Source of the DNA: Nitrospirales bacterium
GTDB lineage: Bacteria > Nitrospirota > Nitrospiria > Nitrospirales > UBA8639
Direction of reading: 5' to 3'
DNA length: 64,000 nt
Assembly (NCBI GenBank): GCA_031315865.1
Contig: JALDRJ010000002.1
Span: forward strand, 1,648,001 to 1,712,000
The translations under genes and the position numbers were made by a program. This document shows, piece after piece, positions 12,081-53,689 of this stretch. The notes beneath the pieces were generated by a model. That model was given only the letters and a program-made list of their open reading frames with translations, was not told where the DNA came from and did no database searches. Position 1 is the stretch's first letter. Every line of letters starts with the position of its first letter.

Positions 12081-12959
12081 TTACAGTTGGAGATGGACTT
12101 GTGTCTGAATTCCGGAATGATCGCAGGCTTGATAAATATGTCGTTGACAGGCTAAGTCATACTCTTCTTGAGCGTGGCCCTCGTCTCCCGCCATTGTAAG
12201 CGCCACTCCCCGATTGTAGTGAACGAGTCCTCCATCCGCTCCTAAATGAATCGCTCGGGTAAAATCTTGAATAGCCGCTTCGATTTCGCCATTCATAAGC
12301 TCAAGGAGTCCTCGGCTCTGAAACGCTTGGTGAAGCGAGCTATTGAGTCTGATCGTTTGATCGAGGTCTTTCTTCGCTGCTTCTCTCGCGCCCGACTTGA
12401 GGTACGCGACTGCTCGATTGAGGTAGATTTCAGCCATGGGGTTGTCGAATGTCAAGGCTTTTGAAAAATCCTGAATGGCGTCTTGATACTGTCCGAGTTG
12501 ACTGAACGCCAACCCCCGATGATTCAACGCTTGCGGAGAATCTGAAGCAGATTCCAAAACCAGAGAAAAATATTCGAGAGCTTTCTGGGGATGCCCTGCT
12601 TCCAAATAGGCGGTCCCGAGATTCTCCAGATATCGAGAGTTCTGTGGGGCCAATTTGACGGCCTGTGTCAGATCTTTGATCGCTTGATCCCATTTTCCTC
12701 GTTTTGCGTAGACATATCCCCGGGCATTTAAGATGGCGTGCTGACTCGGGTTTTTCTGCAACGCCTTCGAGAAGACCTCCTCAGCTTCATTCAACCGTCC
12801 AGAATAATAAAGATTCTGACCTTGCGTTAATGTTTCAGAAGTGTGATCAGGAGCAGAATCTCTCGAATTCAGACTCATACAGCCTATGAGAGTTCCTAAT
12901 AGTGCGAGGAGGAGAACCCATTGAACACATTTACAGATTGTTAGTGATATTTTTCTCAT
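12081..12959 (-). CDS. TPR-repeat lipoprotein
   Basis: About 292 residues starting at the ATG at 12959, which gives a lipoprotein signal (VLLLALLGTLIGC); an upstream ATG at 13028 would bury that signal and is less likely. The mature protein is a chain of about seven tetratricopeptide repeats, for example AILNARGYVYAKRGKWDQAI and ALNHRGLAFSQLGQYQDAI. It resembles NlpI-type outer-membrane scaffolds that bind other proteins. It converges on the slp-like gene, and its upstream region carries the same 11-bp-phased TGTTAC motif. Confidence 0.8.
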   Translation of the reverse strand: MRKISLTICKCVQWVLLLALLGTLIGCMSLNSRDSAPDHTSETLTQGQNLYYSGRLNEAEEVFSKALQKNPSQHAILNARGYVYAKRGKWDQAIKDLTQAVKLAPQNSRYLENLGTAYLEAGHPQKALEYFSLVLESASDSPQALNHRGLAFSQLGQYQDAIQDFSKALTFDNPMAEIYLNRAVAYLKSGAREAAKKDLDQTIRLNSSLHQAFQSRGLLELMNGEIEAAIQDFTRAIHLGADGGLVHYNRGVALTMAGDEGHAQEEYDLACQRHIYQACDHSGIQTQVHLQL

Positions 12960-12986
12960 CTCTGTATATTTCTCCAGGAATGAATG

Positions 12987-13001
12987 TTGAGCAATGCTCA
13001 A
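12987..13001. promoter_or_regulatory. 15-nt perfect palindrome before TPR lipoprotein gene
   Basis: TTGAGCAATGCTCAA is a 7-bp inverted repeat around a single central base, located 28-42 nt upstream of the TPR lipoprotein start. The position near the expected transcription start suits a repressor site; the factor is unknown. Confidence 0.4.
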
Positions 13002-13015
13002 CTGTATCGCGCTCG

Positions 13016-13054
13016 TGTTACGCTTCAAGGTCGTCTTTGTTACATTGGTGTTAC
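13016..13054 (-). promoter_or_regulatory. Phased TGTTAC repeats upstream of TPR lipoprotein gene
   Basis: TGTTAC occurs at 13016, 13038 and 13049, that is at 22- and 11-bp intervals, the same phase as the array before the slp-like gene. Relative to the downstream gene the repeats read in the opposite direction (GTAACA), so they may act differently or be bound in the other orientation. Confidence 0.4.
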
Positions 13055-13191: not shown

Positions 13192-13836
13192 TTACACTGA
13201 TGGAAGCTGCATGCTCAGGTCTTTTGCGGTGGCTCGCCGGGCTCCGGCTGCCGTCATTTCTTGAAGGGCGTCCTCAGAGTCATGGGGCTTCAGGTTGACG
13301 CCGCATATCGCGTCTTCCAGCACGACCATCCGCAACCCCAATTTCAATCCATCCAAAACAGATTGCTTAATCCAATGCTCGGTGGCGAGACCGACGATAT
13401 AGACAGTTGTGGCGTCCCGGTCTTCGAGATAATCGGCCAGGGAGGTGCCATCAAACCCTGAATAGGATTCTTTTTGAGGGTTTGTGGCAACAGAAATGAT
13501 GAGGCTGCCGTTCGGGAGGTGGAGATCTGCATGAAATTGTGCCCCCCGTGATCCCTGGACACAGTGAGATGGCCATGGGCCACCATGTTCTTGGAAAGAA
13601 CAGTGATTAGGCGGATGCCAGTCTCGTGTGGCCATCACTGTGGCTCCTTGGTGTTGAAACAAGGCGATGTAGCGATTGATTTGAGGAAGAATCTGATCGC
13701 TACCCTCTACAGCTAATGCTCCTCCAGGAAAAAAGTCATTCTGGAGATGGATAAGAACCAGGGCGCACGTTTTATCTGGTTTCAAATCCGGTGGCGGTGG
13801 GCTGGTGGGCTCCTGGGATCTTTTAACGAGTTTCAT
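13192..13836 (-). CDS. Nicotinamidase/isochorismatase-fold protein lacking catalytic Asp and Cys
   Basis: A protein of about 214 residues of the nicotinamidase (PncA) fold. The metal site appears intact: TRDWHPPNHCSF and WPSHCVQG supply the Asp and His ligands. ATNPQKESYSGFDG holds the catalytic lysine. But the catalytic Asp of the family motif VDxQNDF is His here (LIHLQNDF), and the nucleophilic Cys of GLxxDYCVK is Trp (GLATEHWIKQ). I read both codons directly (CAT and TGG). It is therefore probably not a working amidase. The start chosen (13836) lies 4 nt after the argB stop, so it appears to be the last gene of the argB operon. Confidence 0.75.
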   Translation of the reverse strand: MKLVKRSQEPTSPPPPDLKPDKTCALVLIHLQNDFFPGGALAVEGSDQILPQINRYIALFQHQGATVMATRDWHPPNHCSFQEHGGPWPSHCVQGSRGAQFHADLHLPNGSLIISVATNPQKESYSGFDGTSLADYLEDRDATTVYIVGLATEHWIKQSVLDGLKLGLRMVVLEDAICGVNLKPHDSEDALQEMTAAGARRATAKDLSMQLPSV

Positions 13837-13840
13837 ACGA

Positions 13841-14734
13841 TTAGGCCACGATTTCAGTGCCAATGCCCTTGTCGGTAAAAATTTCCAGCAAAATGGCATG
13901 GGGGATTCGTCCGTCAATGATGTGAGCTTTTTGGACTCCACCATCCAAAGCCGTCAAACAGGCATGGACTTTGGGGAGCATGCCTTCGCTAATGATCTTT
14001 TTCTTGACCATTCGCTCTGTGTCTTTACGCGACAACGTGGGCACATGATGATTCTCGGCATCCCGAATCCCTTTGATGTCGCTCAACACCAGGAGTTTTT
14101 CGGCATGGAGCGCGCCGGCCACGCTTCCAGCCACGAGATCCGCATTGATGTTGTAGGTATTGCCTTTTTTGTCGACACCAATCGGAGCGATGACAGGAAT
14201 GAAATTTTCTTCTTGAAGTTTTACGATCAATCTTGCATCGACCTGGTCGACTTCGCCGACGAACCCATAGTCGTGATCTTCCGGGGTATCGGTTTCACCC
14301 GTCAGTTTGTGGACCAATGCCTTCGCATTAAATGGTTTGGAGAGAAACAGACGTCCATCTTTTCCCGTCAGACCAACAGCCTTTCCTCCATGCTGGTTGA
14401 GCATGCTCACGATTTCTTTGTTGATCTTTCCCCCTAGGACCATTTCAACGACGTCCATAGTGGCCTGGTCGGTCACACGGACGCCATTGACAAACTTGGG
14501 TTGAATGTTCAGCTTATCGAGCATGGCATTAATTTGTGGACCGCCTCCGTGGATCACGACGGGATTCAAGCCCACGTATTTGAGGAGCACGACATCCTCG
14601 GCAAAACCCTCTTTCAAGGCATGCTGTGTCATCGCGGCTCCCCCATATTTGATCACGATGGTCTTGCCGGCGAATGTCCGGATGTAGGGAAGAGCCTCGA
14701 CGAGAATGTCAGCTTTCTTAATCAGTCGTTCCAT
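13841..14734 (-). CDS. argB: Acetylglutamate kinase
   Basis: A 297-residue amino acid kinase. KTIVIKYGGAAM near residue 25 is the ATP-binding strand, NPVVIHGGGPQIN near residue 57 the substrate loop, and LLVLSDIKGI near residue 210 the nucleotide site. ArgB phosphorylates N-acetylglutamate, the second step of arginine synthesis, in the cytosol. Arginine-inhibited ArgBs carry an N-terminal helix like that seen here (MERLIKKADILVEALPYIRTF), so feedback inhibition by arginine is plausible. It follows hslU after 68 nt. Confidence 0.95.
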   Translation of the reverse strand: MERLIKKADILVEALPYIRTFAGKTIVIKYGGAAMTQHALKEGFAEDVVLLKYVGLNPVVIHGGGPQINAMLDKLNIQPKFVNGVRVTDQATMDVVEMVLGGKINKEIVSMLNQHGGKAVGLTGKDGRLFLSKPFNAKALVHKLTGETDTPEDHDYGFVGEVDQVDARLIVKLQEENFIPVIAPIGVDKKGNTYNINADLVAGSVAGALHAEKLLVLSDIKGIRDAENHHVPTLSRKDTERMVKKKIISEGMLPKVHACLTALDGGVQKAHIIDGRIPHAILLEIFTDKGIGTEIVA

Positions 14735-14802: not shown

Positions 14803-16200
14803 TTACAGGATGTAGCGGCTGAGGTCCTGATCTTTCACGATGTCGTGCAGATGTTGTTTCACGTAAGCCGCATCCACGACGACCTTCTTGTTAGTCAGTT
14901 CTTGAGCTTCGAACGATACATCTTCCAGCATTCGTTCGACGATCGTGAAGAGCCGTCTTGCCCCGATATTTTCAGTCCGATCATTGACTTCGACAGCGGT
15001 GGCAGCAATTTCTTCAATGCCATCATCGGTAAAGTCGAGTGTCACCCCTTCCGTGTTCATCAGCGCTTGATACTGTTTGACGAGCGCGTTTTTAGGCTCT
15101 GTCAGAATGCGGATGAGGTCGTGTTTCGTGAGGGCTTCCAGTTCGACTCGAATGGGGAAGCGACCTTGCAGTTCCGGAATCAGATCCGCTGGCTTCGAGA
15201 CGTGGAACGCACCAGCCGCCACGAATAAAATGTGGTCGGTGCGAACGGGGCCATACTTGGTGTTCACGGTGGAGCCTTCGACGATAGGGAGCAGGTCGCG
15301 TTGCACCCCCTCCCGAGAGATGTCAGGGCCGGTATGTTTTTCCCGTCCGGCGATTTTGTCGATTTCATCCAAGAATACGATGCCTGATTGCTCGGCTTTC
15401 TCGATGGCCTCTTTCGTGACTTCGTCCATATCGATCAGCTTTTGCGCTTCCTCTTGTGCCAGCACTTTCAACGCATCGGGGACTTTCATCCGGCGATTCT
15501 TACTTCGACCGGGCATGAGCCCGCCAAGCATGTCACGTAAGTTATTTTCTAAATCTTCCATGCCACCCACGTTCGAAATAATCCCGACGGGCAATGTCCG
15601 TTCCTTGACTTCGAGTTCGACGTGACGGTTGTCGAGTTTTCCTTCCCGTAATTGCTTGCGAAGTTTTTGGCGAGTATCCTCGGCGGTATCGTAGCGTTCT
15701 GGCTGACCTGGCTCTGTCTCTTTGGACGGCGGCGGGGAGGACGGTCTCGAACTGGAAGGCAGCAACAGGTCGAGGATTCGATCTTCAGCCAGATCTTCGG
15801 CTTTCTTCTCGACCTGCTCAAGATATCGAGTTTTGACCATGTTCACCGACAGTTCCGTCAAGTCGCGGATCAGTGACTCCACATCACGCCCGACATATCC
15901 CACTTCGGTAAACTTCGATGCTTCAATCTTGATGAACGGAGCATCATCGAGCTTAGCCAAGCGACGTGAAATTTCGGTTTTCCCCACGCCGGTTGGTCCG
16001 ATCATAATGATGTTTTTTGGATAAATTTCTTCACGAAGTTCAGGGCTGAGTTGTTGGCGTCTCCAACGATTTCTGAGCGCAATGGCTACCATGCGTTTTG
16101 CATCGCGTTGTCCGATGACGTACCGATCGAGTTCGTCTACGATCTGTCGAGGTGTGAGGCCATCGAGTCGGCTCGGGTTTTGTTGGGATGTATGATTCAT
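14803..16200 (-). CDS. hslU: HslU, ATPase subunit of the HslUV protease
   Basis: 465 residues, the usual length. [20 protein letters not shown] is the family N-terminus, the Walker A motif GPTGVGKT lies near residues 68-75, and [10 protein letters not shown] near residue 277 is Walker B. The inserted I-domain region (about residues 140-200) is highly charged. HslU is the AAA+ unfoldase that feeds proteins into HslV. Its ATG lies 4 nt after the hslV stop, so the two are co-translated. Confidence 0.97.
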
Positions 16201-16204
16201 GGTC

Positions 16205-16747
16205 TTAGGTTGTCAACTCCTCAATCATGATGTGGTGGTTCGTATAGATGTCAATGGCTGCTGCAATGCCCATGGCATGTTCCACGATGGGTTTGGGGGC
16301 CAGAGTCGTGTGGGCGACAAGCGCGCGTGCGGCCGCTAAGGCATACGATCCGCCTGAGCCTATGGCCATCACCCCATCTTCTGGCTCGACGACGTCGCCT
16401 GTCCCTGAAATGATGAATGAATGGTCGCGGTTCGCCACGGTTAGCAGCGCTTCCAACCGCCGCAAGACACGATCCGTTCGCCAGTCTTTCGCCAATTCGA
16501 CGGCTGCCCGTGTGAGGTTCCCACGATATTCTTCAAGTTTGGCATCAAACTTCTCAAACAAGGTAAAGGCATCCGCCGTGGCTCCGGCGAATCCTGCCAG
16601 CACTTGATTGTTGTGCATCTTCCGCAATTTCTTCGCGTTGCTTTTCATGATGGTCGTTCCGACGGTCACCTGACCATCGCACCCCATGGCGACGGTGTGT
16701 TCTTTGCGTACGCATAATATGGTCGTAGATCTGACTCGTATCCCCAT
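16205..16747 (-). CDS. hslV: HslV, proteolytic subunit of the HslUV protease
   Basis: 180 residues of an N-terminal-nucleophile hydrolase. The catalytic threonine is expected at [20 protein letters not shown], so the first seven residues (MGIRVRS) would be a short propeptide that must be removed, longer than the single Met in E. coli. Downstream [14 protein letters not shown] is the conserved family motif. HslV forms the double-hexamer proteolytic chamber for HslU. Confidence 0.95.
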
Positions 16748-16857: not shown

Positions 16858-17805
16858 TCATGTCTTTCGCATGTGCTGGGCTCGTGGATGCGCACGATCG
16901 TACACTTCCATCAGCCGGTCTGCGGCGACTTGCGTGTATTTTTGAGTCGTCGCGAGAGATTCATGGCCTAACAGTTCTTGAATGACTCGTAAGTCTGCTC
17001 CTTCATCCAACAGATGAGTGGCGAATGAATGTCGTAGCGTATGTGGGCTCACGGCTCCGTGAGGCAGTCGTTGAGAAAGTTTCTTGACGATTCGTTCAAC
17101 GCTTCGACTGGTCAGGCGTCCACCACGATTATTCTTAAAGAGAGCATTGTCTTCTGAGCGTACACGAGAGGGTTTATTGGATTGGGCGGCAGATTGCTTC
17201 TGTCTCGATGCGTGATGACGATACTCCTCTATGGCCTGAATAGCGACATCGCCGATCGGAACAATCCGTTCTTTTTTGCCCTTCCCTCTCAGACGGGCAA
17301 TGCCGGAACGGAGGTCGAGGTCGTCCCAATCTAACCCAACCAGCTCACTCACCCGTGCGCCGGTAGAATAGAGGGTTTCAAGGATGGCCCGATCTCTCAT
17401 GGCCGTGCGGTCTTGACTGTCCGGCGCATCCAAGAGGATTGCAGCATCATCTTTAGTCAGGACTTTGGGCAATCGTTGACCTTGACGAGGCGAGCGAATT
17501 TGGGCGGCCGGGTTCGTGTCGATCCAGCCTTCGTGCGTCAAAAAACGGTAGAAGCTTTTGAGTGTCGCGAGCTTTCTGGCCAACGATGACTTTTTTTCAT
17601 GTTTGTCATCGAGCCATTTGAGGAAGCCTCGAATCGTCACGCTCTCCACAGAGGTTGGAGTGGGACATGGTTGGGATTCGGCGTGTATGGATTGCAAGAA
17701 GGTCACAAACTGTCGAAGATCGGAACGGTAGTTACGAATCGTTTCAGGAGAGGCTCCACGCTCGACGTCGAGATACGTTATGAAAGCTCTGATCGCCTCA
17801 TCCAT
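16858..17805 (-). CDS. xerC: XerC/XerD-type tyrosine recombinase
   Basis: 315 residues. The N-terminal SAM-like core-binding domain (FITYLDVERGASPETIRNYR) is followed by the catalytic domain with its Arg in YSTGARVSELVGL, HTLRHSFATHLLDEG, the LLGHESLATTQKYT box and the nucleophilic Tyr of KYTQV. A linker near residue 200 (SRQKQSAAQSNKPSRV) is longer than usual. It should resolve chromosome dimers at dif with a partner recombinase. Its position between trmFO and hslVU copies the Gram-positive gid-codV-clpQY order, which supports the chromosomal XerC role over a mobile integrase. It overlaps trmFO by 28 nt. Confidence 0.9.
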   Translation of the reverse strand: MDEAIRAFITYLDVERGASPETIRNYRSDLRQFVTFLQSIHAESQPCPTPTSVESVTIRGFLKWLDDKHEKKSSLARKLATLKSFYRFLTHEGWIDTNPAAQIRSPRQGQRLPKVLTKDDAAILLDAPDSQDRTAMRDRAILETLYSTGARVSELVGLDWDDLDLRSGIARLRGKGKKERIVPIGDVAIQAIEEYRHHASRQKQSAAQSNKPSRVRSEDNALFKNNRGGRLTSRSVERIVKKLSQRLPHGAVSPHTLRHSFATHLLDEGADLRVIQELLGHESLATTQKYTQVAADRLMEVYDRAHPRAQHMRKT

Positions 17806-19094
17806 TCTTGAAACTCATGTTCAGCCCGTTGTTGAATGTTCTGTCGTTTTTTTTGTTTGTCCCGAATCGTGGATGTGAGGGGAGGGAAGAGTCCGAAATT
17901 GGTGTTAATGGGTTGAAAGTGCGCTGAGTCTGTTGTGGTAATGTACTGTAACAATGCCCCATGCGCTGTTGTGGCCGGTGGGGGGATAATTGGTTTCCCG
18001 GCTACGGTTTTCGCCGCATTGATCCCCGCCAACCCTCCGCTGGCCGCGGCTTCGACATAACCTTCCACTCCGATCAGTTGCCCGGCGAAGAACGTCTGAT
18101 CGTGGGTTTTGAGTTGCAAGGTGTCTTTGAGAAGTTCTGGTGAATTGATAAACGTATTACGATGAATGCTGCCGCACCGTAAAAATTCAGCCTCTTCGAG
18201 GCCTGGAATCATTCGAAAGACTTTTTTCTGATCGGGGTACGTGAGCTTCGTCTGAAAACCGACCATATTATAGCAAGATCCATGGATATTTTCCGGACGG
18301 AGTTGGAGCACGGCATAGGGCCGTTTTCCCGTTTTCGGGTCGAGCAATCCGACTGGCTTCAGCGGACCAAAGAGGAGTGTTTGCTTGCCACGATCGGCCA
18401 TGACTTCAATGGGGAGACAGCCTTCAAAGTAGGGAACGTTCTCGAAATCTTTGGGTTGCACCCGATCGGCTTGTGTCAACGCGTCATAAAAACGATCGTA
18501 GGTTTCGCGATCCATCGGGCAATTTAAGTAGTCAGCTGTGCCTTTATTGTAACGAGAAGCGCGAAACACTTTGGTCATATCCAGGGAATCCGTATCGATG
18601 ATAGGTGCGATCGCATCGAAAAAAAACAAATTTTTCGAATGAGTGAGTGTGCTGATGGCATGGGATAAATCGTTAGATGTGAGGGGGCCGGTCGCAACGA
18701 TACTGATACCGTCTTCGGGAATGTCTTTGATCTCCTCTCTCACGATTCGAACGTTTGGATGATCCTCCAAAGCTTTGGTGACTCCCAAGGCAAACCGTTC
18801 GCGATCCACGGCCAGTGCAGATCCCGCGGGAACCTTGGCTTGATCGGCTTGTTGGATGATCAACGAATTCAGCTTCCGCATCTCGTTTTTGAGGATGCCG
18901 GGAGCGCTCATCGCATCATTGGACCCCAGGGAGTTGGAACACACAATTTCCGCGAGATAATCGGTTTTATGAGCGGCCGTCCCTTCTTGGGGACGCATCT
19001 CGTAGAGCGTGACCTTGGCTCCGTGGTTGGCCGCTTGCCAGGCTGCTTCTGAGCCGGCCAACCCTCCACCGATAATAGCAATATCGTTTCGCAT
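17778..19094 (-). CDS. trmFO: TrmFO, folate/FAD-dependent tRNA m5U54 methyltransferase
   Basis: 438 residues. The FAD-binding N-terminus IAIIGGGLAGSEAAWQAANHG, EIVCSNSLGSNDAMSAPG and GVEGYVEAAASGGLAGINAA are diagnostic of TrmFO. The enzyme uses methylene-tetrahydrofolate and NAD(P)H to methylate U54 in the T-loop of tRNA. It heads the minus-strand operon with xerC, hslV, hslU and argB, and has a promoter at 19139-19168. Confidence 0.95.
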   Translation of the reverse strand: MRNDIAIIGGGLAGSEAAWQAANHGAKVTLYEMRPQEGTAAHKTDYLAEIVCSNSLGSNDAMSAPGILKNEMRKLNSLIIQQADQAKVPAGSALAVDRERFALGVTKALEDHPNVRIVREEIKDIPEDGISIVATGPLTSNDLSHAISTLTHSKNLFFFDAIAPIIDTDSLDMTKVFRASRYNKGTADYLNCPMDRETYDRFYDALTQADRVQPKDFENVPYFEGCLPIEVMADRGKQTLLFGPLKPVGLLDPKTGKRPYAVLQLRPENIHGSCYNMVGFQTKLTYPDQKKVFRMIPGLEEAEFLRCGSIHRNTFINSPELLKDTLQLKTHDQTFFAGQLIGVEGYVEAAASGGLAGINAAKTVAGKPIIPPPATTAHGALLQYITTTDSAHFQPINTNFGLFPPLTSTIRDKQKKRQNIQQRAEHEFQEWMRRSELS

Positions 19095-42286: not shown

Positions 42287-45200
42287 CTAATTCTGCTCGG
42301 AAAACACGACCATCAATTCCCGTCCTCCTGTCTTGATCTTCATTTCCAGCGGGAATGCGCTCGGAGGGGGCGATGTGAGACGAAATCGCCTGTCTGCCGC
42401 TTCGTAGGTGAGCCAAGCCGGCAGCGGCTGGTCGTGAGCGAGTTCGAACGTTCCGGTGAAGGTGGACAGGGTTTGCTTGATGGATTCTGGGAACTCAATG
42501 AGGAATCCAGTGTTATCGCGTGGTCGGTCGCGGGGAAGGGAAATCGTGATGAGTCCGGGGCCATAGGGAGTCACGTCTTTCACTTCCTGAATGATCGTCG
42601 TCTGCGGTATCGGACTGGCCAGCGTCGTCAGCGTAGGGACGACAAGTGGCAGTGGCGCGTTCGTGGAACCGGCATTCGCGACTGTGGTGAGTACTTCAAG
42701 GCTCACAGCGGGGAGCGTGGCGGGGGTGCCGACGGGTGGAATCACATTCACTCCCGTTTGGCTCGAGATGCCTCCAAGAGTGTCCACGACCGAGTTCTCG
42801 ATCGCGACACTGTCCACGCCCGTGAGGGCCAGTTGGCCTGTGGAGGTGACCGTTCCTGTCTGTAGTCCGCCATTCCCATCCACGATAGTGATGTTTCGGC
42901 CGTTCAAATCGACGAGGCCGAGAAAATCATTGCCGGGATTGGGGAGGAGAATATCCGCCGGTTGTCCACCAGTCCGTGCGGTGAATTGACTAGTACTGCC
43001 TGCCGTCAGCGTGGTCCCGCTCGTTTGGGTAATGTCGCCATCGGTACTCGTGACCACTAATGGGCCAGTACTCGAAAGATTGCCGAGACGAAGTCCTCCC
43101 GACGTATCCGTGAGTGTGGTGGTCCCGCCGACGGTGACGGTGCCGGTGCCCGGTTGGTCATATTCCTGTGTTGTGGTGAAGTTGCCCTGGGTTGATGTTG
43201 AGCCACTACTTTGCGTGAAACGCCCGAGCATGATATCGCCGGTGCTGGAGACCGTTCCGCCCGTTTGATCCAGGCTATTCAACGTCACTCCGCCGGTGCC
43301 CACTTGTAACGTCCCCTGTTGCATCGCGAGACCGCCATTGGTCCCCAGGCTCGTGATTTCCACCGTCCCTGTCTGTGCGGGGGGCGTGACGCTCTGATCA
43401 TTGAACGTCACGGTCACGCCAGTCGGAATCGTTACGGCTTCGACGTTGGCGAGATCCGGGACCGCTCCGCCTGCCCAGTTGGCCGGATCAAACCAATCTC
43501 CTGTCGCTCCCCCTGTCCAGGTGACCGTGCCTAATCGGGTGATGGAGGCCGTCGTGCTGTCGGTGGCGCTCACGGTGTAATTGCTGGCATCCGCTCCGCC
43601 AAGACCGAGTCCTGTGACCGTCACGACTTTGTTGGTGCCCACGTTTTTATCGGCAAACATCGCTGTGGCGCCGCTGCCATCGGAGGAGACCGTATCGCCA
43701 TGGACGACGCCGGCCAAGGTGCCCACATTGCTGAGAGTCGCGGCCGTGCCCCCAGTATAGACTCGATCATTGGCCGTCAGTCCCTGTCGAGTCAGGAGTT
43801 TCTGGGTGATGATCCCGTCCGTGCGTGAAAGGCTTCCGCCCGTGACATAATTGCCGGCATCGGACCCGGAAAGCGCGATGCTGCTGAGCGTATAGGTGAG
43901 TCCCGTACCCACTTGTGGCGTCGCATAGGTTCCAGTCCCGGTGACGTTTACGACGTCGCCGCTGGCCAGACCCGTGAGCCCAAGCATGAGATCAGGCATG
44001 GCTGTCGTCCCGTCATACGTCTTGCTGACCTGAGTCGTGGGGACCGTTACGGTTTTAGGGGTGACGGTATGGGTGCCGACGAACGTCACGGTATCACTAA
44101 AATTCGCACTGGACTCGGTAATCGTGTTGCTGCCGACTTGGTAAGTGCCGACTTGAAGATGTCCGCCGGTACTCGTCAGAGGGTTCAGAGCCGTGAGGGT
44201 AAACGCCGCGTTTCCGCCGGCGCCATCGGTGAGGGTCACGGTATTACCATTGGCGCTGACGTTCCCGGTGAGATCGATAATTGTGTTGCTGTTATTCAAA
44301 TAGCGCGCGCTACTCACGGTATACGTGGGAGTGGTTCCAAAGGTGGAGGTGGGGGTACTCGCCACTTCCACGAGAAGCTGTTCTGCCGGGACGATCCTGA
44401 AATCGCCATTGACATAAGTAAGGCTATAGTTGGTGGCGCTGAGCCCACTGGGGACCAGGACCGAGGAATGGGTGCCGATAGCATTGTTCCCGCTATCGCT
44501 CCGGCTGACCACCGCGGTGCCGCTAAGGACACTCGTGGTTTCCCCATTTACGAGACCCTCAACCGAAATGCCATGAAAGCCGGCTGGATCAGCTTCGGTG
44601 ACGAATTTGGCCGAGGGGTTGGCCCGAATGGTCAACGGGGCCTGCGTAATGGACCCGTTGCCATTCGTCCAGGCAAGAGAATAGTTGCCGGCGTCGGCGC
44701 CTTGGAGGCCGACGGTGCCTTGCTGAATCGTCCGGGCCCCGACATTTTTATCACTGTAGACCGGGGTTCCGGTCAGGGTCACTACATCACTGCCGAGGAG
44801 GCCGCCAAGCGTGCCGTATCCTGTTTGTCCTGTAGGGAGATTGGTCGTGCCATCGTAGACTTTATCGAGTCCAGTGGTCCCGGAGAGCGTCAGAGATGCG
44901 GCCGTAATGTTGGCGGTGGTCGAGGTCTGATCGGTTACGCTGTAGTTGGCGGCATCGGCTCCGCCGTAGGTGGTGCCGCTCAAGGTGACGGATTTGCCGG
45001 TGCCCACGTTTTTATCGGCAAAGGTGCCGGTGGTGCTGGCGGCGGTGACGGTATCGCCACCGACGAGGCCGGTAAAGGTAACGCCGCTATGATCGACGGT
45101 GGCGCTCGTAGTGCCGTCATAGACTTTATTGGTGGCGGTCAGGCCGGAGACGGTGAGGGCTTTGGCCGTGATGTTGGCGGTGGTCGAAGTCTGATCGGTT

Positions 45201-48200
45201 ACGCTGTAGTTGGCGGCATCGGCTCCGCCGTAGGTGGTGCCGCTTAAGGTGACGGATTTGCCGGTGCCCACGTTTTTATCGGCAAAGGTGCCGGAGGTGT
45301 TGGCGGCGGTGACGGTATCGCCGGCGACGAGGCCGGTAAAGGTAACGCCGCTATGATCGACGGTGGCGCTCGTAGTGCCGTCATAGACTTTATTGGTGGC
45401 GGTCAGGCCGGAGACGGTAAGGGCTTTGGCCGTGATGTTGGCGGTGGTCGAAGTCTGATCGGTTACGCTGTAGTTGGCGGCATCGGCTCCGCCGTAGGTG
45501 GTGCCGCTTAAGGCGACGGATTTGCCGGCGCCCACGTTTTTATCGGCAAAGGTGCCGGTGGTGTTGGCGGCGGTGACGGTATCGCCGGCGACGAGGCCGG
45601 TAAAGGTAACGCCGCTATGATCGACGGTGGCGCTCGTGGTGCCGTCATAGACTTTATTGGCGGCGGTAAGGCCGGAGACGGTGAGGGCTTTGGGGGTAAT
45701 ATTGGCAGAAGAAGTCCCGGTCGTTGAACTCAAGACGTAATTGCTCACGTCAGTCCCGGTGATCGTCAATCCTGTCAGGTTGACGGTCTTGCCGGTTCCG
45801 ACGTTTTTATCCCCAAACGTTGCCGTGCCGTTGACGGTCACCACATCCCCCGTGATCACCCCATTGCCAGTGGTGCTGATTGAGGCGGCGGTTGTGCCAT
45901 CATACACCTTGTTGTTCACGGGGAGCGGGGTCGTGATGGTTTTCTGGTTGACGGTCAACGTGCCGTTGTTCGTGACGACCGCATAGCCTAATTGATCCAC
46001 GGCTCCACCAATCGTGAGACTGTGGGTCCCTGCCGTATAACGGCCAGAGGTCGAAGTGCTGCCGCCCACGGAGATCGACGGTGGCGTGCTAAAAATTTGC
46101 GGGCTTGTATCCCCATTTTGGCTGTTGATTGTGATGGCCGTTGCGGGCATGGTCCCATAGGTGATGGTTTCATCCGTGGCTGTGACAGTGACCGATGGCT
46201 GCTCCCGGTAGATCGCGTATGTCCCTGTGGCGCCAAGTGCGGCAGTAAAGTTACTTGCCGCTTCATCGGAGTGGTAGCGGAAGTTTCCGCTGCCTGAGCC
46301 AATGAGATTCGTCAGGCCGGTACTGCCGGACACATTGCCGGAATACAGTGTGGTGTTCCCGGTCGTGGCGGTCAGGGTTGGTGAACCGCTGATAAGCAGG
46401 TTGCCGCCAGTCGCTGTGCCGGCTGCTGCATTTTTGCCGGCATTCAGCGTAATGCTGGTGCCGCTGATATTGTCTGAGACGGTGAGGTCTCCGGTGAGGG
46501 TCGCGATGTTCACGGCGCCAGTGGCGGTAATCCCGGTAGGGTTGACCGTGCCGATCGTCAGCGCATTGCTGTCGGTGAAGCTGAGGGTTCCCACGCCGCT
46601 GGCCGCCAGGGTTCCGATGTTGGTACTGCTATGATCCAATGTCACGTTGCCGCCTAAGAGGGCCAGCTTGTCGGCCGTCAGATACCCGCTGGCGCCGTCC
46701 GTGACGGAGCCCGTGCCGGTAAGGGTGACGGTATTGCTGCCCGTGGCGGTCAGCGGGGCATTGATCGCGACTGTCCCTCCGTAGAGGGTGATGTCGCCGT
46801 TGATTGTAGCGGTACTGCCGAGCGTGACGGTGTCATACGGCTTGCCGGAAGTGCCTACATTGAGGCCAGTCAACGTGCTTCCAAAATCCCACCCGGTGGT
46901 GTCGGCTGACGTATTCGCGCCCGTACCGGCGCTGGAAGAGGGTTGAAAAGCCAGGGTCCCTGTCGTCTTGATATTCAGGTTGGCTGAATTGTTTGGCACT
47001 TGGTCGGCCACGATGACGATCTCGCTGCTCGAACTGAGTATCGACGATCCCGTTTTGGCACCAAGGTAACTTTGGCTTGATGCATTGAAAAACGCGAGTT
47101 GATCGTCTCCGGTGTCAATGGTAATGGTGCCCGAAGTGGCCAGTGCTTCAAGGTTGCCACTATCGACTGTGCTGCCGACGCGAATGCCCTCGGTTGCGGC
47201 AGACCGGCCGGTCAGCGTGATGCCGCCGGTGCCTGTGGACTGTATCGTCAAGTTGTCTTCGATCAGCAGCGCCGAAAAGGACGTATCGGTCGATGCCGTC
47301 TCGGCAGACAGTGAAATGGCTGTTGGGTCATTCGAGCTGCTGGTGAGCGTTAACAAACTGTCGACGCCATTGGGGTGCAGACCGATCAACATGGAGTAGG
47401 CGCCGCTCGACCCAGCGTACGCATGCATCTCAATCGTGCCACTACCCGCACTTATCGAACCGTTAGTCCCGCCGTGAACGATACCAGAGCCTGCAATAGG
47501 GGAGCCGCCGTCGATATTCAAGTCCATTCCGGCCGCGTAGAAGTCACCACCAGCGGTCGAAATCGTCGCGTTTGCCATTCCGATGCCAGCTCGCCAATTG
47601 ACACCGTTGGGCATAGGGACGCCCGCGCCGCTGGCCGCATACCCATTCCCAACTGTTAAGCCATTCCACGTCGTGGAGCCGTCACCGTTGAGTGTGCCCG
47701 GATTGCCCTTATCGGTACTGCCACCTAACCACACGTGTCCGCCATTGGTTGAAATCGAACTGCCATCGGCCAGGTAGATATAGCCATTTTTGTCGCCGCC
47801 ATCTGCACTGCTCCATCCGATGACGTGACCGTTAGTGGTGGTGAGAGCCGCGCTGGAATTGACCGTAATGCTTCCAAGACTCTTCAGCAGGATGCCGGCG
47901 CCGGATGCACCGCTCACGTCAATGTCCTGGTTGATCGTGATGTCGCCGCCGTAGATCGTGACTGGCCCAGCAACAGTTGCCGTGTTGAAGGTCACGTTCG
48001 CCGTGTTCGTGGTCTTGCCAACTCGCAGGCTGCTCGGGTCGCCCGTGATGTTGGCATTCGTAAGCGTGAGGCCGGCAAGGAAGCTTGTACCAACGGACTC
48101 GATGACCACATCGCCGCTGGTCGTGATGTCGCTGGCGGCGACGTCAAAGGTCATTTTATCCGCCTGGAACGTGATGTTCGAAGAGCTGGACGTGACCGTT

Positions 48201-51200
48201 GATCCGTCGGCTCCTATGTTGATGTTCCCGGCTGAACTGGGGCGAAGGTAGAGACCGGTATACGTTCCTGTCAGCCCGGTCGGTTGCGCGTCGTGGATCG
48301 TGATGGCGCCGGAACTGGAAAGAATATCTGCGCTGGAACCATCGACCGCGAAGCCACGTGAGTTACCGGAGGCTTTTCCCCCGGTTCCCGTGATGTTGAT
48401 CGCTCCGGATTCGGTTTGAATCAACGGGCTGGAAGCCTGCATGCCCCATGTATTTCCCGTGTTGGGATTGTTTGTCGCGTCGCCCACGATGGTTATGGTT
48501 CCGCTGCCCGTCGTCGTGATCGAGGCGCTGGATAGACTAATCGCACGGTCGGTCCCGCCGGAAGTTCCTCCAGCGCCGAACGATGCATTCAGGCTGATGT
48601 CGCCGCCATTAGCGTTGAGGGTATCGTTTACGGTGATCCCTACGTCACCACCAGATGTCCCAAGGGACCCGCTTGCCAAGAGCTGAATGTCGCCACCGTT
48701 GCTTTCAATACTCGCATCAGTGATGATCCGACTGCCGATCAGATTCACGTCGCCTTGGATGTCGATCGGATCGTAGGTCCTGATCTCTATCGTGTTGCCG
48801 ACTTTCCCCAGCGTGAGTCCGCCCAACTGACTGAAATTGAGGAATTTTAGGTATAACGCGTCGCCCAACCCGGTGTAGGTGCCGCCAGACAACGTGCCGT
48901 CGAAATCGAACGTGCCACCGTAGCCGCTCCACGCGGTGCCGTTCGGTTTGTACGTCCAATGCCCGGTCGAATTGATTGTCAGCACCTGGGTGCCGATGGT
49001 GTCCGCGATCAGCGTGATATCGCCCGCGCCCGCGGTAATGGAATGTGGCGTATTCAGGGCGATACCTGAGATGCCGAGGTTGTACCCATCTCCAGCCCAG
49101 AGTAACACGTCGCCGCCGTTGGTGGTGATATCGCCAAAAAAGTCCAGTGCGTTTTGGTTGTACCCATTCGCCCCGACCGACGGACCGTTGCCCACGGTCA
49201 GGCCGTTCCATGTATCACTACCCGGTGTGGCAGCACTGCCCCCGGCCCACAAGTGTCCTCCGCCGGTGTTGATGGAGGTCAAGATCGAGACCCCACCCTG
49301 GTCGCCGCCGTCGTAATCGGACCAGAGCACCACGTTCAACCCATCGGAGGAGGACGCATCGATCGTTCCATTCACGCTCACCCGCGAGACACCTTTGAGT
49401 GTCATGGTGCCGGTTCCGGCTGTCTTGGTGAAGTTGCCCCTCAGACCAACGGACGGATTGCCGTCTGCGCTTCCGTGAAGCCATACGTCTCCCGTTGCCG
49501 ACTGTGTGATAGTACCGCTGATATCCACGGTGCCGCCGTTCATGGTGATGGCGCCGGGTACGACCAGCGATGCATCGACGTCAATGAGGTTTGTCGCGGA
49601 AAAATCCAGGTCGCCGCCGGTCGTCACTGTCGTCCCGTTCACAAGCAGACCGGTTGTACTGTTGACATCAAGCCCCGAATCATAGGTTTGCGTCCCTGTG
49701 GTGACTAAGGAACTGCCATTAATGGTGACCCCGTTGGACGTCACATCCAGCGACGTCAGCGCATCGGTGCCTCCAATGCCGCCTGAGGTGACCGTGCCGG
49801 TGGCTCCCGCGTCGATCGTCACCTTTGTTGATACCGTGTTGCTTGAATTCAGCAGACCGCCAAAGACGATATTCCCGCCGTCTGAATCAAATGTCACTCC
49901 CGCTGGCGACGAATTCGCCACGATCGTGTCGCCGTCGATCGTGATGTCACCACCATTGGTTTTGATGTTCGGTGAATTGACGGTGTTGAAACCGTCTCCT
50001 GAGCTATCCGTGTCGGCCGACAGCGTCACGTTTAGTCTCGCCGTATTGCCATTCTGCGTAGCATCGATTTCCGCGCTGCTGTTTATCGTGATATGGCGAG
50101 CCGCCTGCAAGGTCAAGGTGGCATCGCCAGCCATCGCACCGGTCACAATGTCACTCGTAACGCTAATGTCGCCTGGGTCGGCGTTGTTGCCTGAACTTCC
50201 GAACGAAGCATTATCGGCTGTTGTCGTCACCGTGACATTCGTTCCGGCATCAAGCGCCGTGACGATATTGCCCGCCGCGGTCGCATCGATCACATAATTG
50301 TATGGATCGAGCAGCCACTGGCCGCCTTCCCCCGCGCTGACCGAGGCCGACGCGTCGATGGTCAGATCGTGTCCGGAAGTTTCGATCTGTCCCCCGTGGC
50401 CATAGTGCCTTCCGCCCCTGGCCAGTATTTCCCCGGCAACCGAGGTTCTGGATTCCTGGCTCGTGATATCCGACCACAAGACGATCGTGCCGCCGTCGCC
50501 CCGTTCGGTCGCGGAGGCATCGATGGATGCCCCGGGTTCCATCGTGACGGTTGTGGCGTGGCGCATCCCGCCGGAACCCTGCCAGCCACCGCCGATGAGC
50601 ACTTCTCCCCCTCCGGTTGCGCCGGTCGCCGTAATGGAGGAATCGGTTCCGAGCTTCAGATCATCGCCTTCCAAGAGAACCCGCCCGCCCTTGCTGACGA
50701 GACTCGAGGCGCTCAGGATTCCATCATGTCGCACCACGCTGCCGTGGAGCTGGTTGGCCGCGTGGGCCGATAAGATAATGAGCCCATCGGGCGCGAGCAC
50801 GGCGTGGCCATTTTCCACGATGGTGTCGATAGTGGCCGGGTCGACACGGATGCCGGTCAGACTGCGATTCGGATCAAATTGTAATTCGAACGCTTCGCCG
50901 GCCGCGAGCGCCACGGTTCCGAGTTCGGCGATGATCACGCCATCATTCCGGACTTCCGGGGCCAAGAGCGCGATATAGCCGCCAAGCGACGCGCGCAGTT
51001 GCCCTTCGTTGATGATGCGGCCGGTCGCCCCGTTTCGCGTAAAGTGATTCTTGCCGGCCATGAATTCCTCCACGCTCAAACTATGGGTGGTGGCCACGAG
51101 GCCGCCGACATCGATGTTGGCGCCCGGTGCGAAATACACGCCGTTGGGATTGGTCAGGAACACCTGGCCGTTGGCGTTGAGCTGGCCGAAAATCTGGCTG

Positions 51201-51580
51201 GGGTTGGGGCCCTGGACGCGATTGAGTATGACACTGCTGGTCGAGGGTTGATTGAAATTGACGGTGGCTTGGCTGCCAATATCGAATGTGTGCCAGTCAA
51301 TCGCCGCACGATTGGTGGCCTGGTCGATGTTCATGGTGTTGTGTTGGCGACTGATGCTGGCTTGCCCTCCCACGACCTGTTCGCCTGTCGGTAATTGGGT
51401 CGCGCCTGGGGCAGCAGCGTGGCTGACTGCGGGGTTCAGCACCAAGGTGCTGCAGAGTAAGACATGGAGAAGAAGACGTTGCCGGCCGGATTGTCGTGGG
51501 GTCTTGGGTGTTCGCTGTGAATTAGGGAAAGTCATGTTGTTTGTTTCCATGAAGATCGTTTGATTCGTATCCTGGGCCAT
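42287..51580 (-). CDS. Giant two-partner-secretion adhesin (TpsA, filamentous haemagglutinin type)
   Basis: 3097 residues. An extended signal region (RLLLHVLLCSTLVLNPAVSHA) precedes the TPS secretion domain (NMNIDQ-like start, ILNRVQGPNPSQIFGQLNAN, LTNPNGVYFAPGANIDVGG, residues about 60-320). A long beta-helical stalk follows. About residues 1730-2620 contain an MBG-like domain and seven YDG domains (KVYDGTT, DKNVG), three of them nearly identical. Later WTGGATGDWFDPANWAGG and a C-terminal LPAWLTYEAADRRFRL element that looks like an Ig-type cap. It should be exported by the adjacent TpsB and act in attachment or biofilm. The start may be 51580 or 51535. Plus-strand open frames across it are shadows. 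Confidence 0.9.
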   Translation of the reverse strand: MAQDTNQTIFMETNNMTFPNSQRTPKTPRQSGRQRLLLHVLLCSTLVLNPAVSHAAAPGATQLPTGEQVVGGQASISRQHNTMNIDQATNRAAIDWHTFDIGSQATVNFNQPSTSSVILNRVQGPNPSQIFGQLNANGQVFLTNPNGVYFAPGANIDVGGLVATTHSLSVEEFMAGKNHFTRNGATGRIINEGQLRASLGGYIALLAPEVRNDGVIIAELGTVALAAGEAFELQFDPNRSLTGIRVDPATIDTIVENGHAVLAPDGLIILSAHAANQLHGSVVRHDGILSASSLVSKGGRVLLEGDDLKLGTDSSITATGATGGGEVLIGGGWQGSGGMRHATTVTMEPGASIDASATERGDGGTIVLWSDITSQESRTSVAGEILARGGRHYGHGGQIETSGHDLTIDASASVSAGEGGQWLLDPYNYVIDATAAGNIVTALDAGTNVTVTTTADNASFGSSGNNADPGDISVTSDIVTGAMAGDATLTLQAARHITINSSAEIDATQNGNTARLNVTLSADTDSSGDGFNTVNSPNIKTNGGDITIDGDTIVANSSPAGVTFDSDGGNIVFGGLLNSSNTVSTKVTIDAGATGTVTSGGIGGTDALTSLDVTSNGVTINGSSLVTTGTQTYDSGLDVNSTTGLLVNGTTVTTGGDLDFSATNLIDVDASLVVPGAITMNGGTVDISGTITQSATGDVWLHGSADGNPSVGLRGNFTKTAGTGTMTLKGVSRVSVNGTIDASSSDGLNVVLWSDYDGGDQGGVSILTSINTGGGHLWAGGSAATPGSDTWNGLTVGNGPSVGANGYNQNALDFFGDITTNGGDVLLWAGDGYNLGISGIALNTPHSITAGAGDITLIADTIGTQVLTINSTGHWTYKPNGTAWSGYGGTFDFDGTLSGGTYTGLGDALYLKFLNFSQLGGLTLGKVGNTIEIRTYDPIDIQGDVNLIGSRIITDASIESNGGDIQLLASGSLGTSGGDVGITVNDTLNANGGDISLNASFGAGGTSGGTDRAISLSSASITTTGSGTITIVGDATNNPNTGNTWGMQASSPLIQTESGAINITGTGGKASGNSRGFAVDGSSADILSSSGAITIHDAQPTGLTGTYTGLYLRPSSAGNINIGADGSTVTSSSSNITFQADKMTFDVAASDITTSGDVVIESVGTSFLAGLTLTNANITGDPSSLRVGKTTNTANVTFNTATVAGPVTIYGGDITINQDIDVSGASGAGILLKSLGSITVNSSAALTTTNGHVIGWSSADGGDKNGYIYLADGSSISTNGGHVWLGGSTDKGNPGTLNGDGSTTWNGLTVGNGYAASGAGVPMPNGVNWRAGIGMANATISTAGGDFYAAGMDLNIDGGSPIAGSGIVHGGTNGSISAGSGTIEMHAYAGSSGAYSMLIGLHPNGVDSLLTLTSSSNDPTAISLSAETASTDTSFSALLIEDNLTIQSTGTGGITLTGRSAATEGIRVGSTVDSGNLEALATSGTITIDTGDDQLAFFNASSQSYLGAKTGSSILSSSSEIVIVADQVPNNSANLNIKTTGTLAFQPSSSAGTGANTSADTTGWDFGSTLTGLNVGTSGKPYDTVTLGSTATINGDITLYGGTVAINAPLTATGSNTVTLTGTGSVTDGASGYLTADKLALLGGNVTLDHSSTNIGTLAASGVGTLSFTDSNALTIGTVNPTGITATGAVNIATLTGDLTVSDNISGTSITLNAGKNAAAGTATGGNLLISGSPTLTATTGNTTLYSGNVSGSTGLTNLIGSGSGNFRYHSDEAASNFTAALGATGTYAIYREQPSVTVTATDETITYGTMPATAITINSQNGDTSPQIFSTPPSISVGGSTSTSGRYTAGTHSLTIGGAVDQLGYAVVTNNGTLTVNQKTITTPLPVNNKVYDGTTAASISTTGNGVITGDVVTVNGTATFGDKNVGTGKTVNLTGLTITGTDVSNYVLSSTTGTSSANITPKALTVSGLTAANKVYDGTTSATVDHSGVTFTGLVAGDTVTAANTTGTFADKNVGAGKSVALSGTTYGGADAANYSVTDQTSTTANITAKALTVSGLTATNKVYDGTTSATVDHSGVTFTGLVAGDTVTAANTSGTFADKNVGTGKSVTLSGTTYGGADAANYSVTDQTSTTANITAKALTVSGLTATNKVYDGTTSATVDHSGVTFTGLVGGDTVTAASTTGTFADKNVGTGKSVTLSGTTYGGADAANYSVTDQTSTTANITAASLTLSGTTGLDKVYDGTTNLPTGQTGYGTLGGLLGSDVVTLTGTPVYSDKNVGARTIQQGTVGLQGADAGNYSLAWTNGNGSITQAPLTIRANPSAKFVTEADPAGFHGISVEGLVNGETTSVLSGTAVVSRSDSGNNAIGTHSSVLVPSGLSATNYSLTYVNGDFRIVPAEQLLVEVASTPTSTFGTTPTYTVSSARYLNNSNTIIDLTGNVSANGNTVTLTDGAGGNAAFTLTALNPLTSTGGHLQVGTYQVGSNTITESSANFSDTVTFVGTHTVTPKTVTVPTTQVSKTYDGTTAMPDLMLGLTGLASGDVVNVTGTGTYATPQVGTGLTYTLSSIALSGSDAGNYVTGGSLSRTDGIITQKLLTRQGLTANDRVYTGGTAATLSNVGTLAGVVHGDTVSSDGSGATAMFADKNVGTNKVVTVTGLGLGGADASNYTVSATDSTTASITRLGTVTWTGGATGDWFDPANWAGGAVPDLANVEAVTIPTGVTVTFNDQSVTPPAQTGTVEITSLGTNGGLAMQQGTLQVGTGGVTLNSLDQTGGTVSSTGDIMLGRFTQSSGSTSTQGNFTTTQEYDQPGTGTVTVGGTTTLTDTSGGLRLGNLSSTGPLVVTSTDGDITQTSGTTLTAGSTSQFTARTGGQPADILLPNPGNDFLGLVDLNGRNITIVDGNGGLQTGTVTSTGQLALTGVDSVAIENSVVDTLGGISSQTGVNVIPPVGTPATLPAVSLEVLTTVANAGSTNAPLPLVVPTLTTLASPIPQTTIIQEVKDVTPYGPGLITISLPRDRPRDNTGFLIEFPESIKQTLSTFTGTFELAHDQPLPAWLTYEAADRRFRLTSPPPSAFPLEMKIKTGGRELMVVFSEQN
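44900..45691 (-). repeat. Three tandem 264-bp repeats (88-residue YDG units)
   Basis: Copies run 45691-45428, 45427-45164 and 45163-44900 on the minus strand. Each encodes KALTVSGLT...NKVYDGTTSATVDHS...TANITA. They differ at few positions (for example AAN/ATN, GAGKSVA/GTGKSVT, VAGD/VGGD). The near identity at DNA level shows recent duplication and predicts copy-number variation between strains. Confidence 0.9.
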
Positions 51581-51607
51581 TCGTTTCTTTCTTCTGTTGT
51601 ATTTTGT

Positions 51608-51636
51608 GAGACATTTAGAGAATTTTCGGAGACATT
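51608..51636 (-). repeat. 21-bp-spaced direct repeat upstream of the adhesin
   Basis: GAGACATT occurs at 51608-51615 and 51629-51636, two helical turns apart, about 30-55 nt before the adhesin start. It might be a regulator site. Confidence 0.3.
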
Positions 51637-51760
51637 AGGGGAGAACTTTAAGACGAGGGCGCGCAGGATTGGCGGGCGTCGTGCGGGGAGTCCGTGACCG
51701 TCGTTATTACCTGGAAGTGTTGAATCCAAGAAGTCCATGTCGCGAGAAAGACGTCGTGCG

Positions 51761-51796
51761 TCCGAAGCTTCGGAGCGGTTCAACCAAGCCTTGGTT
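51761..51796. promoter_or_regulatory. Two adjacent palindromes between tpsB and tpsA
   Basis: TCCGAAGCTTCGGA (51761-51774) is a perfect 14-bp palindrome and AACCAAGCCTTGGTT (51782-51796) a 7-bp inverted repeat around one base. They sit 12-47 nt after the tpsB stop. They could form RNA hairpins that separate expression of the transporter from the much longer adhesin message. Confidence 0.4.
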
Positions 51797-51807
51797 TATC
51801 AGGATTG

Positions 51808-53502
51808 TTAGAAGGCATAGACGGCTGAAAGCCAAAAGCGGTTGAGAATGTGGGAGCCATCTTGGTCTTTCCCTGTCGCGGTGGGATTGGGGTTGTCGCC
51901 TAAGCGGTGGGACCAGGTGGCATCCAGAGAGAGCCCAAACCAACTCACCCATGCCACGGACAGTCCGCCTCCTTTGAGGGTGTAGTCTTTCCCGACGTTC
52001 CGTTTATTGTAGACGCGGCCGACGTCGTAAAATCCCGTGAGCGTCAATCCGTAAGGGAGCTGTGCTTGGAGTTCAAGGTTGGTGGTCAAGCCGCTGGACC
52101 CACTGGCTTCATTGACTGGATACGCGCGCACGCTGCTTGGCCCTCCCATGTAATATTTTTCCGCGGAGTCGAGGGTCTCAAAGGCTTTTTGGCCGGAAAA
52201 GATGCCTCGGAGCGACAGCCAGGGAAGCAGCTCTTGCTGGCGGCTCAGAGACAAGCGAAATTTGGTAAAGAAGCCTTCCCGGTTGGAGTTTTCCGATGCT
52301 TGATGTCTTCCCTGGTCCAGGGTTCCCAATACCCAGGTGAGACTGCCGAAATTGGACCCGTGAAGGCCGGTGAGGGTTTCAAACCAGTTCCCGGCCAGAC
52401 CAAAGGTGCCTTCGTTGATATGGTAATCGGATTGACGTGTTCCGAGGGCTCGATTTTCAAACTGTCGATAATCGTAGTTCATCAGCATCTGGAGGTTGTA
52501 GGTGCGGGCCCGTATGAGAGGATAAAACGCCTCGAGACCGACAGTTGAGGCATGTCCTTTTCCCCTTAATGCGGAAAACTCGGGAGCGATGAGTCGATAG
52601 GAGAGCAGAGAGGCGCTGGCGCCTATCCTCCAACCATCATGTCCAATCGGGACGGTATAGCGTAAGCGTCCATATTCACTCCCCGGCGAAATAATGGTTG
52701 ATGCGATGAGTTGATCGCCAAGCTTGAGCGGGCTGTTGAGGTAGGCGGTGGCATAGCCTTGCGCCATGCCGGTCCCGCGGTTCCCGCCATTGTTTACGCC
52801 GAGCTGGCCATGAAGGAGCGGGTCGTCCGCGGCGGTGACCTGGACGGTGGTTTCTCCTTCGCGCGCTCCGGCTTGGAGAGCCCCAGCTACCGCCACCCCC
52901 GGGAGATCGTCCGCGAGGAGCAGTCCTCGATCGAGGGCCTTCGTGTTCAACAATTGCTGAGGCGTCAGTTGCGTGTCGATCAGGTCTGTGATGTCGTGCG
53001 CGGCGACGTGCGTCGGTGGCTCCCCGCTTATGGCGGCTCCGCCAAACGTGGCTTCTTGGATATTGATGGTGACGGTGCCGTCCGTAATATCTTGCTTCGG
53101 GAGATAGGCGCGCACGATCCATCCTGCCTGACGGTAGTATTCGGCGATGTCTGCCGTGGCTTTTCTGAGCGCGGCCAAATCCAGATGTTTGTTCACGTAG
53201 GGGGCGACGACGGTTTGGAGCCGTCCGTCTGAGATTTGAGTATTTCCAGAAAATCGAAAGGACTTGACCAGGATCGTGACAGCGGATTGAGGGGCTTGCT
53301 GTGGCGCGGGGGGCGCATCGGGAGGGACTTCTTCCGGGAATGACTGTTCGCGTTCCATCTCTGATTGCCGCTGTTGCTGTTGCAGTACGCCGGCATCAGG
53401 AATGGTTTGCGCGAGGCTTGTGAGGATTCCCCAATGGCCGATGGTGCAACTCAACAGAATGATCCCAATCAGCAGGCAGGTTGCGAAGTGTCGTGTGTTC
53501 AT
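51808..53502 (-). CDS. TpsB, two-partner secretion outer-membrane transporter
   Basis: 564 residues from the ATG at 53502, preceded by GGAAGGAC; longer start at 53589 would bury the signal peptide (FATCLLIGIILLSCTIGHWGILTSLA). A Gln/Pro-rich linker (QQQQRQSEMEREQ) leads to POTRA domains beginning VKSFRFSGNTQIS, then the 16-stranded barrel with SVRAYPVNEASG (the conserved VRGY loop, here VRAY) and a final Phe (FWLSAVYAF). FhaC/ShlB family: it threads the neighbouring adhesin across the outer membrane. Confidence 0.92.
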   Translation of the reverse strand: MNTRHFATCLLIGIILLSCTIGHWGILTSLAQTIPDAGVLQQQQRQSEMEREQSFPEEVPPDAPPAPQQAPQSAVTILVKSFRFSGNTQISDGRLQTVVAPYVNKHLDLAALRKATADIAEYYRQAGWIVRAYLPKQDITDGTVTINIQEATFGGAAISGEPPTHVAAHDITDLIDTQLTPQQLLNTKALDRGLLLADDLPGVAVAGALQAGAREGETTVQVTAADDPLLHGQLGVNNGGNRGTGMAQGYATAYLNSPLKLGDQLIASTIISPGSEYGRLRYTVPIGHDGWRIGASASLLSYRLIAPEFSALRGKGHASTVGLEAFYPLIRARTYNLQMLMNYDYRQFENRALGTRQSDYHINEGTFGLAGNWFETLTGLHGSNFGSLTWVLGTLDQGRHQASENSNREGFFTKFRLSLSRQQELLPWLSLRGIFSGQKAFETLDSAEKYYMGGPSSVRAYPVNEASGSSGLTTNLELQAQLPYGLTLTGFYDVGRVYNKRNVGKDYTLKGGGLSVAWVSWFGLSLDATWSHRLGDNPNPTATGKDQDGSHILNRFWLSAVYAF

Positions 53503-53689
53503 ATGTGGAGAGTCCTTCCGATCTGTCGGTGTTTTGACGAGTGAACGGCGAGAGGGCCAAAATTTTGACTTTCTCCTGCCATCCGTCATGTCACCATCCG
53601 AACATCGTTCGTGGCTTCACGAAATCTGGAGAAAGGAGACGATTGGCTCTATGGCTCTGAATGTATTCACTTTTGCTCATGTCCAGAAC

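Follow-up and report, generated by a model that had tools for sequence, protein, structure and literature searches.

An argB-linked protein of the nicotinamidase family that has lost its catalytic triad, probably a pseudoenzyme, in a genus of Nitrospirales

Results

The gene that follows argB in the DNA analysed here (the window, a stretch of 64,000 nucleotides from a Nitrospirales bacterium) encodes a protein of the nicotinamidase family in which all three residues of the Asp-Lys-Cys (D/K/C) catalytic triad are replaced. To judge from its sequence, it is likely (with a probability of roughly 0.78) that this argB-linked protein is a pseudo-nicotinamidase maintained by selection, which lacks the D-K-C machinery and would act by binding, outside NAD salvage. 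The protein so described is conserved in one genus, with intermediate states in neighbouring genera; it is no artefact, is maintained by selection and invites misannotation.

The argB locus

The ATG of the gene lies 4 nt beyond the argB stop codon, on the same strand, as a preliminary description of this DNA had stated. The locus comprises the following features.

12081..13028, minus strand: TPR protein, downstream, conserved in 3 of 4 sister species
13192..13836, minus strand: argB-linked putative pseudo-nicotinamidase gene, 214 aa, PF00857 fold, ATG at 13836
13777..13836, minus strand: N-terminal extension of about 20 residues, starting MKLxK, absent from 1ilw and modelled with low confidence (pLDDT 53-65)
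13841..14734, minus strand: argB (acetylglutamate kinase; TIGR00761, 1.4e-78), 4 nt upstream, conserved neighbour
14803..16200, minus strand: hslU, conserved neighbour
16205..16747, minus strand: hslV, conserved neighbour
16858..17805, minus strand: xerC-type tyrosine recombinase, conserved neighbour
17778..19094, minus strand: trmFO (GidA family), conserved neighbour

The order trmFO-xerC-hslV-hslU-argB-gene was found, as far as the contigs reach, at 41 of 41 argB-linked loci (40 from the family, plus the window), and none of the nicotinamidases from other families in the order adjoins argB. The preliminary description had rightly called this an odd place for a gene of NAD salvage, and the linkage proves to be conserved throughout the family. 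The gap between argB and the gene is 4 nt in the genus of the window (g1 in our numbering of genera), 5 nt in most g9 genomes and up to 309 nt in g4. Because of such large intergenic gaps in some genomes, the linkage could reflect an inherited neighbourhood and not function. A scan for promoters and terminators around the gene gave nothing beyond chance level.

Elsewhere, at 42287-53589, the window also holds a two-partner secretion pair.

42287-51580, minus strand: 3097-aa TPS-domain exoprotein with seven YDG and two MBG repeats
51808-53589, minus strand: ShlB/FhaC-type transporter with a POTRA domain, partner of the exoprotein

Fold of the protein

In profile searches the 214-aa protein matched the Pfam Isochorismatase family (PF00857) at 6.8e-31, and it could be aligned end to end with the P. 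horikoshii nicotinamidase 1ilw (8.3e-56). The AlphaFold2 model (mean pLDDT 91.8, pTM 0.87) found 1ilw as its best match among solved structures in the PDB (Z 31.0, TM 0.97 on the target), superposing with an rmsd of 1.0 over 179 residues at 48% identity, and the protein is thus confidently predicted to have a nicotinamidase fold. Against the NCBIfam nicotinamidase model NF008623 it scored 166.1 bits, below the cutoff of 174, a threshold that is not decisive alone since partial translations of D/K/C relatives likewise scored below it. Within the N-terminal extension, K2 and K5 are conserved across the argB-linked clade.

Loss of the triad and retention of the metal site

The nicotinamidase triad consists of Asp10/Lys94/Cys133 in the P. 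horikoshii enzyme (PhPncA) and of Asp8/Lys96/Cys138 in that of M. tuberculosis (MtPncA), and the metal ligands of PhPncA are Asp52/His54/His71 (PMC3025910). The corresponding positions of the window protein, where the alignment to 1ilw replaces D/K/C by His30/Val116/Trp155, are listed below.

13747..13749, minus strand: codon CAT of His30, at the catalytic Asp position (PhPncA Asp10, MtPncA Asp8; alignments)
13489..13491, minus strand: codon GTT of Val116, at the catalytic Lys position (PhPncA Lys94, MtPncA Lys96); Gly in four sister species
13372..13374, minus strand: codon TGG of Trp155, at the nucleophilic Cys position (PhPncA Cys133, MtPncA Cys138; alignments)
13621..13623, minus strand: Asp72, kept metal-ligand residue (PhPncA Asp52; alignment)
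13615..13617, minus strand: His74, kept metal-ligand residue (PhPncA His54; alignment)
13603..13605, minus strand: His78, part of the NHCSF motif, without variation among the aligned argB-linked sequences
13564..13566, minus strand: His91, kept metal-ligand residue (PhPncA His71; alignment)

His and Trp had been reported in place of the catalytic Asp and Cys, and the alignment bears this out, H30 falling on Asp10 and W155 on Cys133 of 1ilw. The accompanying claim that the lysine was kept was mistaken: the catalytic Lys94 of 1ilw lies within 'IISKATEPDKEAYSGF', the aligned segment of the window protein is 'IISVATNPQKESYSGF', and the residue is accordingly Val116. The lysine that had been seen is K122 (in PQKESY), a non-catalytic residue six positions downstream of the catalytic one. 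The metal ligands D72, H74 and H91 are indeed retained, together with H78, a candidate additional ligand that may correspond to MtPncA His57. Phe35 and Trp88, which form the ring pocket, and the LAT motif of the oxyanion loop are kept as well.

The retention of the fold, the metal ligands, Phe35, Trp88 and the oxyanion-loop residues would be expected if the protein were still a nicotinamidase working with non-canonical residues. This is, however, barely credible, as the site contains neither Cys nor another nucleophile, no general-base Asp and no Lys, and the genus has no PncB match that could make use of nicotinate. Engineered single substitutions at the triad of MtPncA are already fatal or nearly so: no activity could be detected for C138A and K96Q, and none or almost none was left in Asp8Glu (PMC3025910).

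NAD metabolism in the family

Of 49 family genomes, 19 gave a match to PncB (NAPRTase, PF04095), and the five g1 genomes are not among these; the PF04095 model matches weakly in this family (27-40 bits), so that a divergent PncB is possible. NadA is present in 46 of the 49, including the genome of the window, and the genus g1 as such has it, so that NAD can be made de novo. PncB presence is not a simple correlate of triad state, half of the g4 genomes, with H/G/C (residues at the Asp, Lys and Cys positions), holding PncB. In six g9 genomes with PncB, a separate D/K/C PncA adjoins pncB, and the argB-linked copy is therefore not the dedicated salvage enzyme there. These second nicotinamidases of g9 (L077-L082) form a long-branch clade with the signature T152E, Y154V and Y125N. 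Some pncB-like frames of g9 (L093 and L095; G071 and G069) are about 700 aa long, against 450-470 aa in other genera, and are possibly fused or preceded by an upstream open extension.

The search for an intact paralogue that the preliminary description had proposed yielded a single other PF00857 protein in the window's genome, a divergent 262-aa RutB/biuret-hydrolase-like protein (20% identity) which is apparently secreted and is not a nicotinamidase. No other nicotinamidase was found in the genus.

Conservation and selection within the genus

Among 83 outgroup nicotinamidase homologues, the triad positions are conserved at 100% (Asp), 95% (Lys) and 100% (Cys); four of these homologues (L120, L125, L137 and L157) have Ala or Thr at the Lys position and keep Asp and Cys. 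In the genus, sampled as the window species and four others, His at the Asp position and Trp at the Cys position occur in 5 of 5 species, the four sister proteins being H/G/W at 73-76% identity to the window protein. The recurrence of the replacements in these four, together with the conservation in the outgroup, rules out sequencing error or chance. Forty-seven positions are at least 90% conserved in the 83 outgroup sequences, and the only genus-wide changes among them are at the three triad positions (hypergeometric 6e-5). Individual species carry one or two further changes among Tyr125, Tyr154 and Val156, the median for outgroup rows being one change.

The gene is under purifying selection, weaker than that on its neighbours: pairwise dN/dS comes to 0.11 for the genus and, for its closest sister pair, to 0.13, as compared with 0.03-0.08 for neighbouring genes. 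At His30, CAT and CAC show synonymous turnover. These observations bear on the view that the protein is a decaying relic, a nicotinamidase that became useless after PncB loss and is drifting towards loss itself. The want of a PncB match in the genus would fit such a history, as would the absence of a clear argB-linked copy from several family genomes (some of them incomplete) and the erosion of the active site in other argB-linked members (G010, Cys to Phe with the metal Asp changed to Ala; G064, Cys to Ser; G067, Cys to Ala). The selection result nevertheless disfavours it, with dN/dS at 0.11-0.13 in the genus and 0.10 in g4; moreover, each of the five species has kept the open reading frame intact, and the genus-shared changes at conserved positions are confined to the triad. 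We consider decay improbable.

States of the triad across the family

Among the nicotinamidases, the argB-linked proteins group in a single supported clade. In g1 the triad reads H/(G or V)/W, and in g4 and g7 it reads H/(G, V or C)/C, apart from one sequence with Phe at the Cys position; the single g10 sequence has H/S, its Cys position being unread. All sequences of g3, g5, g6, g8 and g9 have Asp and Lys, and only two of them lack the Cys, for which they have Ser and Ala. The argB-linked proteins of g3, g5 and g6 show just 1-3 deviations over the 47 positions from the consensus of the outgroup and come from genomes that contain PncB, for which reasons they are probably genuine nicotinamidases. 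The triad is likewise intact in most g9 sequences and in the g8 sequence, but these carry 7-13 changes, including Tyr125, oxyanion-loop Ala151 to Pro and Trp88, so that their activity is doubtful too. The g9 and g8 group L058-L076, mostly D/K/C, departs from the ordinary nicotinamidase by a different route, with a Pro in the oxyanion loop instead of Ala151 or Leu150 and with Tyr125 or Trp88 exchanged for other residues.

In the gene tree, which was built with the triad columns left out, g1/g10 and g4/g7 fall outside the supported D/K/C clade, and a single His-bearing clade is not rejected (AU 0.198). According to the linked housekeeping genes, g4/g7 belong with g3/g5/g6, and g1/g10 belong with g8/g9; by these genes such a clade is strongly rejected (AU 5e-130). 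Given this conflict, the change of Asp to His with loss of Lys either occurred twice in parallel or arose once and then spread by gene transfer. The change of Cys to Trp is an additional one, in g1. Among 396 genomes of the phylum searched for the pattern H-x-Q-N-D-F, 51 matched; the ten loci examined from outside the family were without a nicotinamidase homologue (one chance match, E 0.14).

Across the 20 His-bearing sequences, which come from four genera, His30 never varies and is encoded by both CAT and CAC, while position 116 drifts (G/V/S/C); Asn119 goes together with His30. Simple loss of function would not require this invariance, and His30 may for this reason have an active role. Conceivably, His30 and the metal site constitute a new catalytic centre, in which either a histidine serves as base to a water activated by the metal or the metal site is rearranged, and the protein is an enzyme for another reaction, one that might be connected with arginine metabolism. 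Besides the constancy of His30 and its companion Asn119, this would be consistent with the retention of all metal-ligand residues in every sequence but one, and with the housekeeping genes, which split the His-bearing genera into two places and so allow that Asp to His arose twice. We nonetheless hold a new enzyme to be unlikely: in the window's genus, none of the remaining catalytic positions has a residue that could plausibly act as a new nucleophile, the pocket would be crowded by a Trp in place of the Cys, the genome points to no substrate and, as stated, the gene tree does not reject a single origin of the His.

Discussion

The preferred reading, a selected pseudo-nicotinamidase, agrees in kind with the preliminary description, which had likewise proposed a pseudoenzyme; the case has become stronger in that three catalytic residues have been lost and not two, the loss is common to five species and the gene is under purifying selection. 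In the family at large, a Cys nucleophile is activated by Asp and Lys. With all three residues gone, the established mechanism and the sequence together indicate that amide hydrolysis by the known route is not possible, and the thioester intermediate of the family would be unable to form. The PncA fold, the metal-site residues and the aromatic pocket are all retained next to a catalytic machinery that is wholly lost. Because these elements are still conserved, binding would be the most likely mode of action, possibly as a metal-stabilised scaffold or sensor produced together with ArgB. We infer the lack of amidase activity, the metal occupancy and the role of the window protein in binding a partner or ligand.

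It had been suggested that the protein might be a metal- or nicotinamide-binding regulator. The kept ligands are compatible with metal binding; a nicotinamide-binding regulator is unsupported, since the pocket is probably occupied, at its amide end, by the Trp that stands in for the nucleophile. There is an outside chance that, in these relatives of nitrite-oxidising Nitrospira, the change of Asp to His and of Lys to Gly (or Val), possibly twice in parallel, gave rise to a new metal-histidine activity or to a regulatory role linked to ArgB and arginine synthesis.

The part that PncA plays in activating pyrazinamide, a tuberculosis drug, has made nicotinamidases a much-studied family. Our searches of the open literature yielded no report of a pseudoenzyme among PncA/nicotinamidases or isochorismatases, and nothing relevant on a nicotinamidase in Nitrospira. 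Automatic labelling of such proteins as 'nicotinamidase' is probably wrong, and a warning in this respect comes from an H/G/C member that passes the NF008623 cutoff (189 versus 174 bits). The erased triad in g1, the H/G/C intermediates and the intact D/K/C relatives, all at one syntenic locus, amount to a natural experiment on the passage from enzyme to pseudoenzyme.

Compared with PncA (1ilw/1im5 from P. horikoshii, 3pl1 from M. tuberculosis, and NF008623), the window protein shares the fold, the D/H/H metal ligands, Phe35, Trp88 and the LAT motif, and differs in its H/V/W triad, its sub-cutoff score, its N-terminal extension of about 20 residues, its linkage to argB and the lack of a PncB match in its genus. 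The isochorismatases PhzD and EntB have the same fold and work without a Cys nucleophile, acting on vinyl ethers; they keep the catalytic Asp, whereas the window protein has lost this residue too, and sequence identity to them is about 13%. With pseudoenzymes in general, it has in common a conserved fold, ablated catalytic residues and purifying selection.
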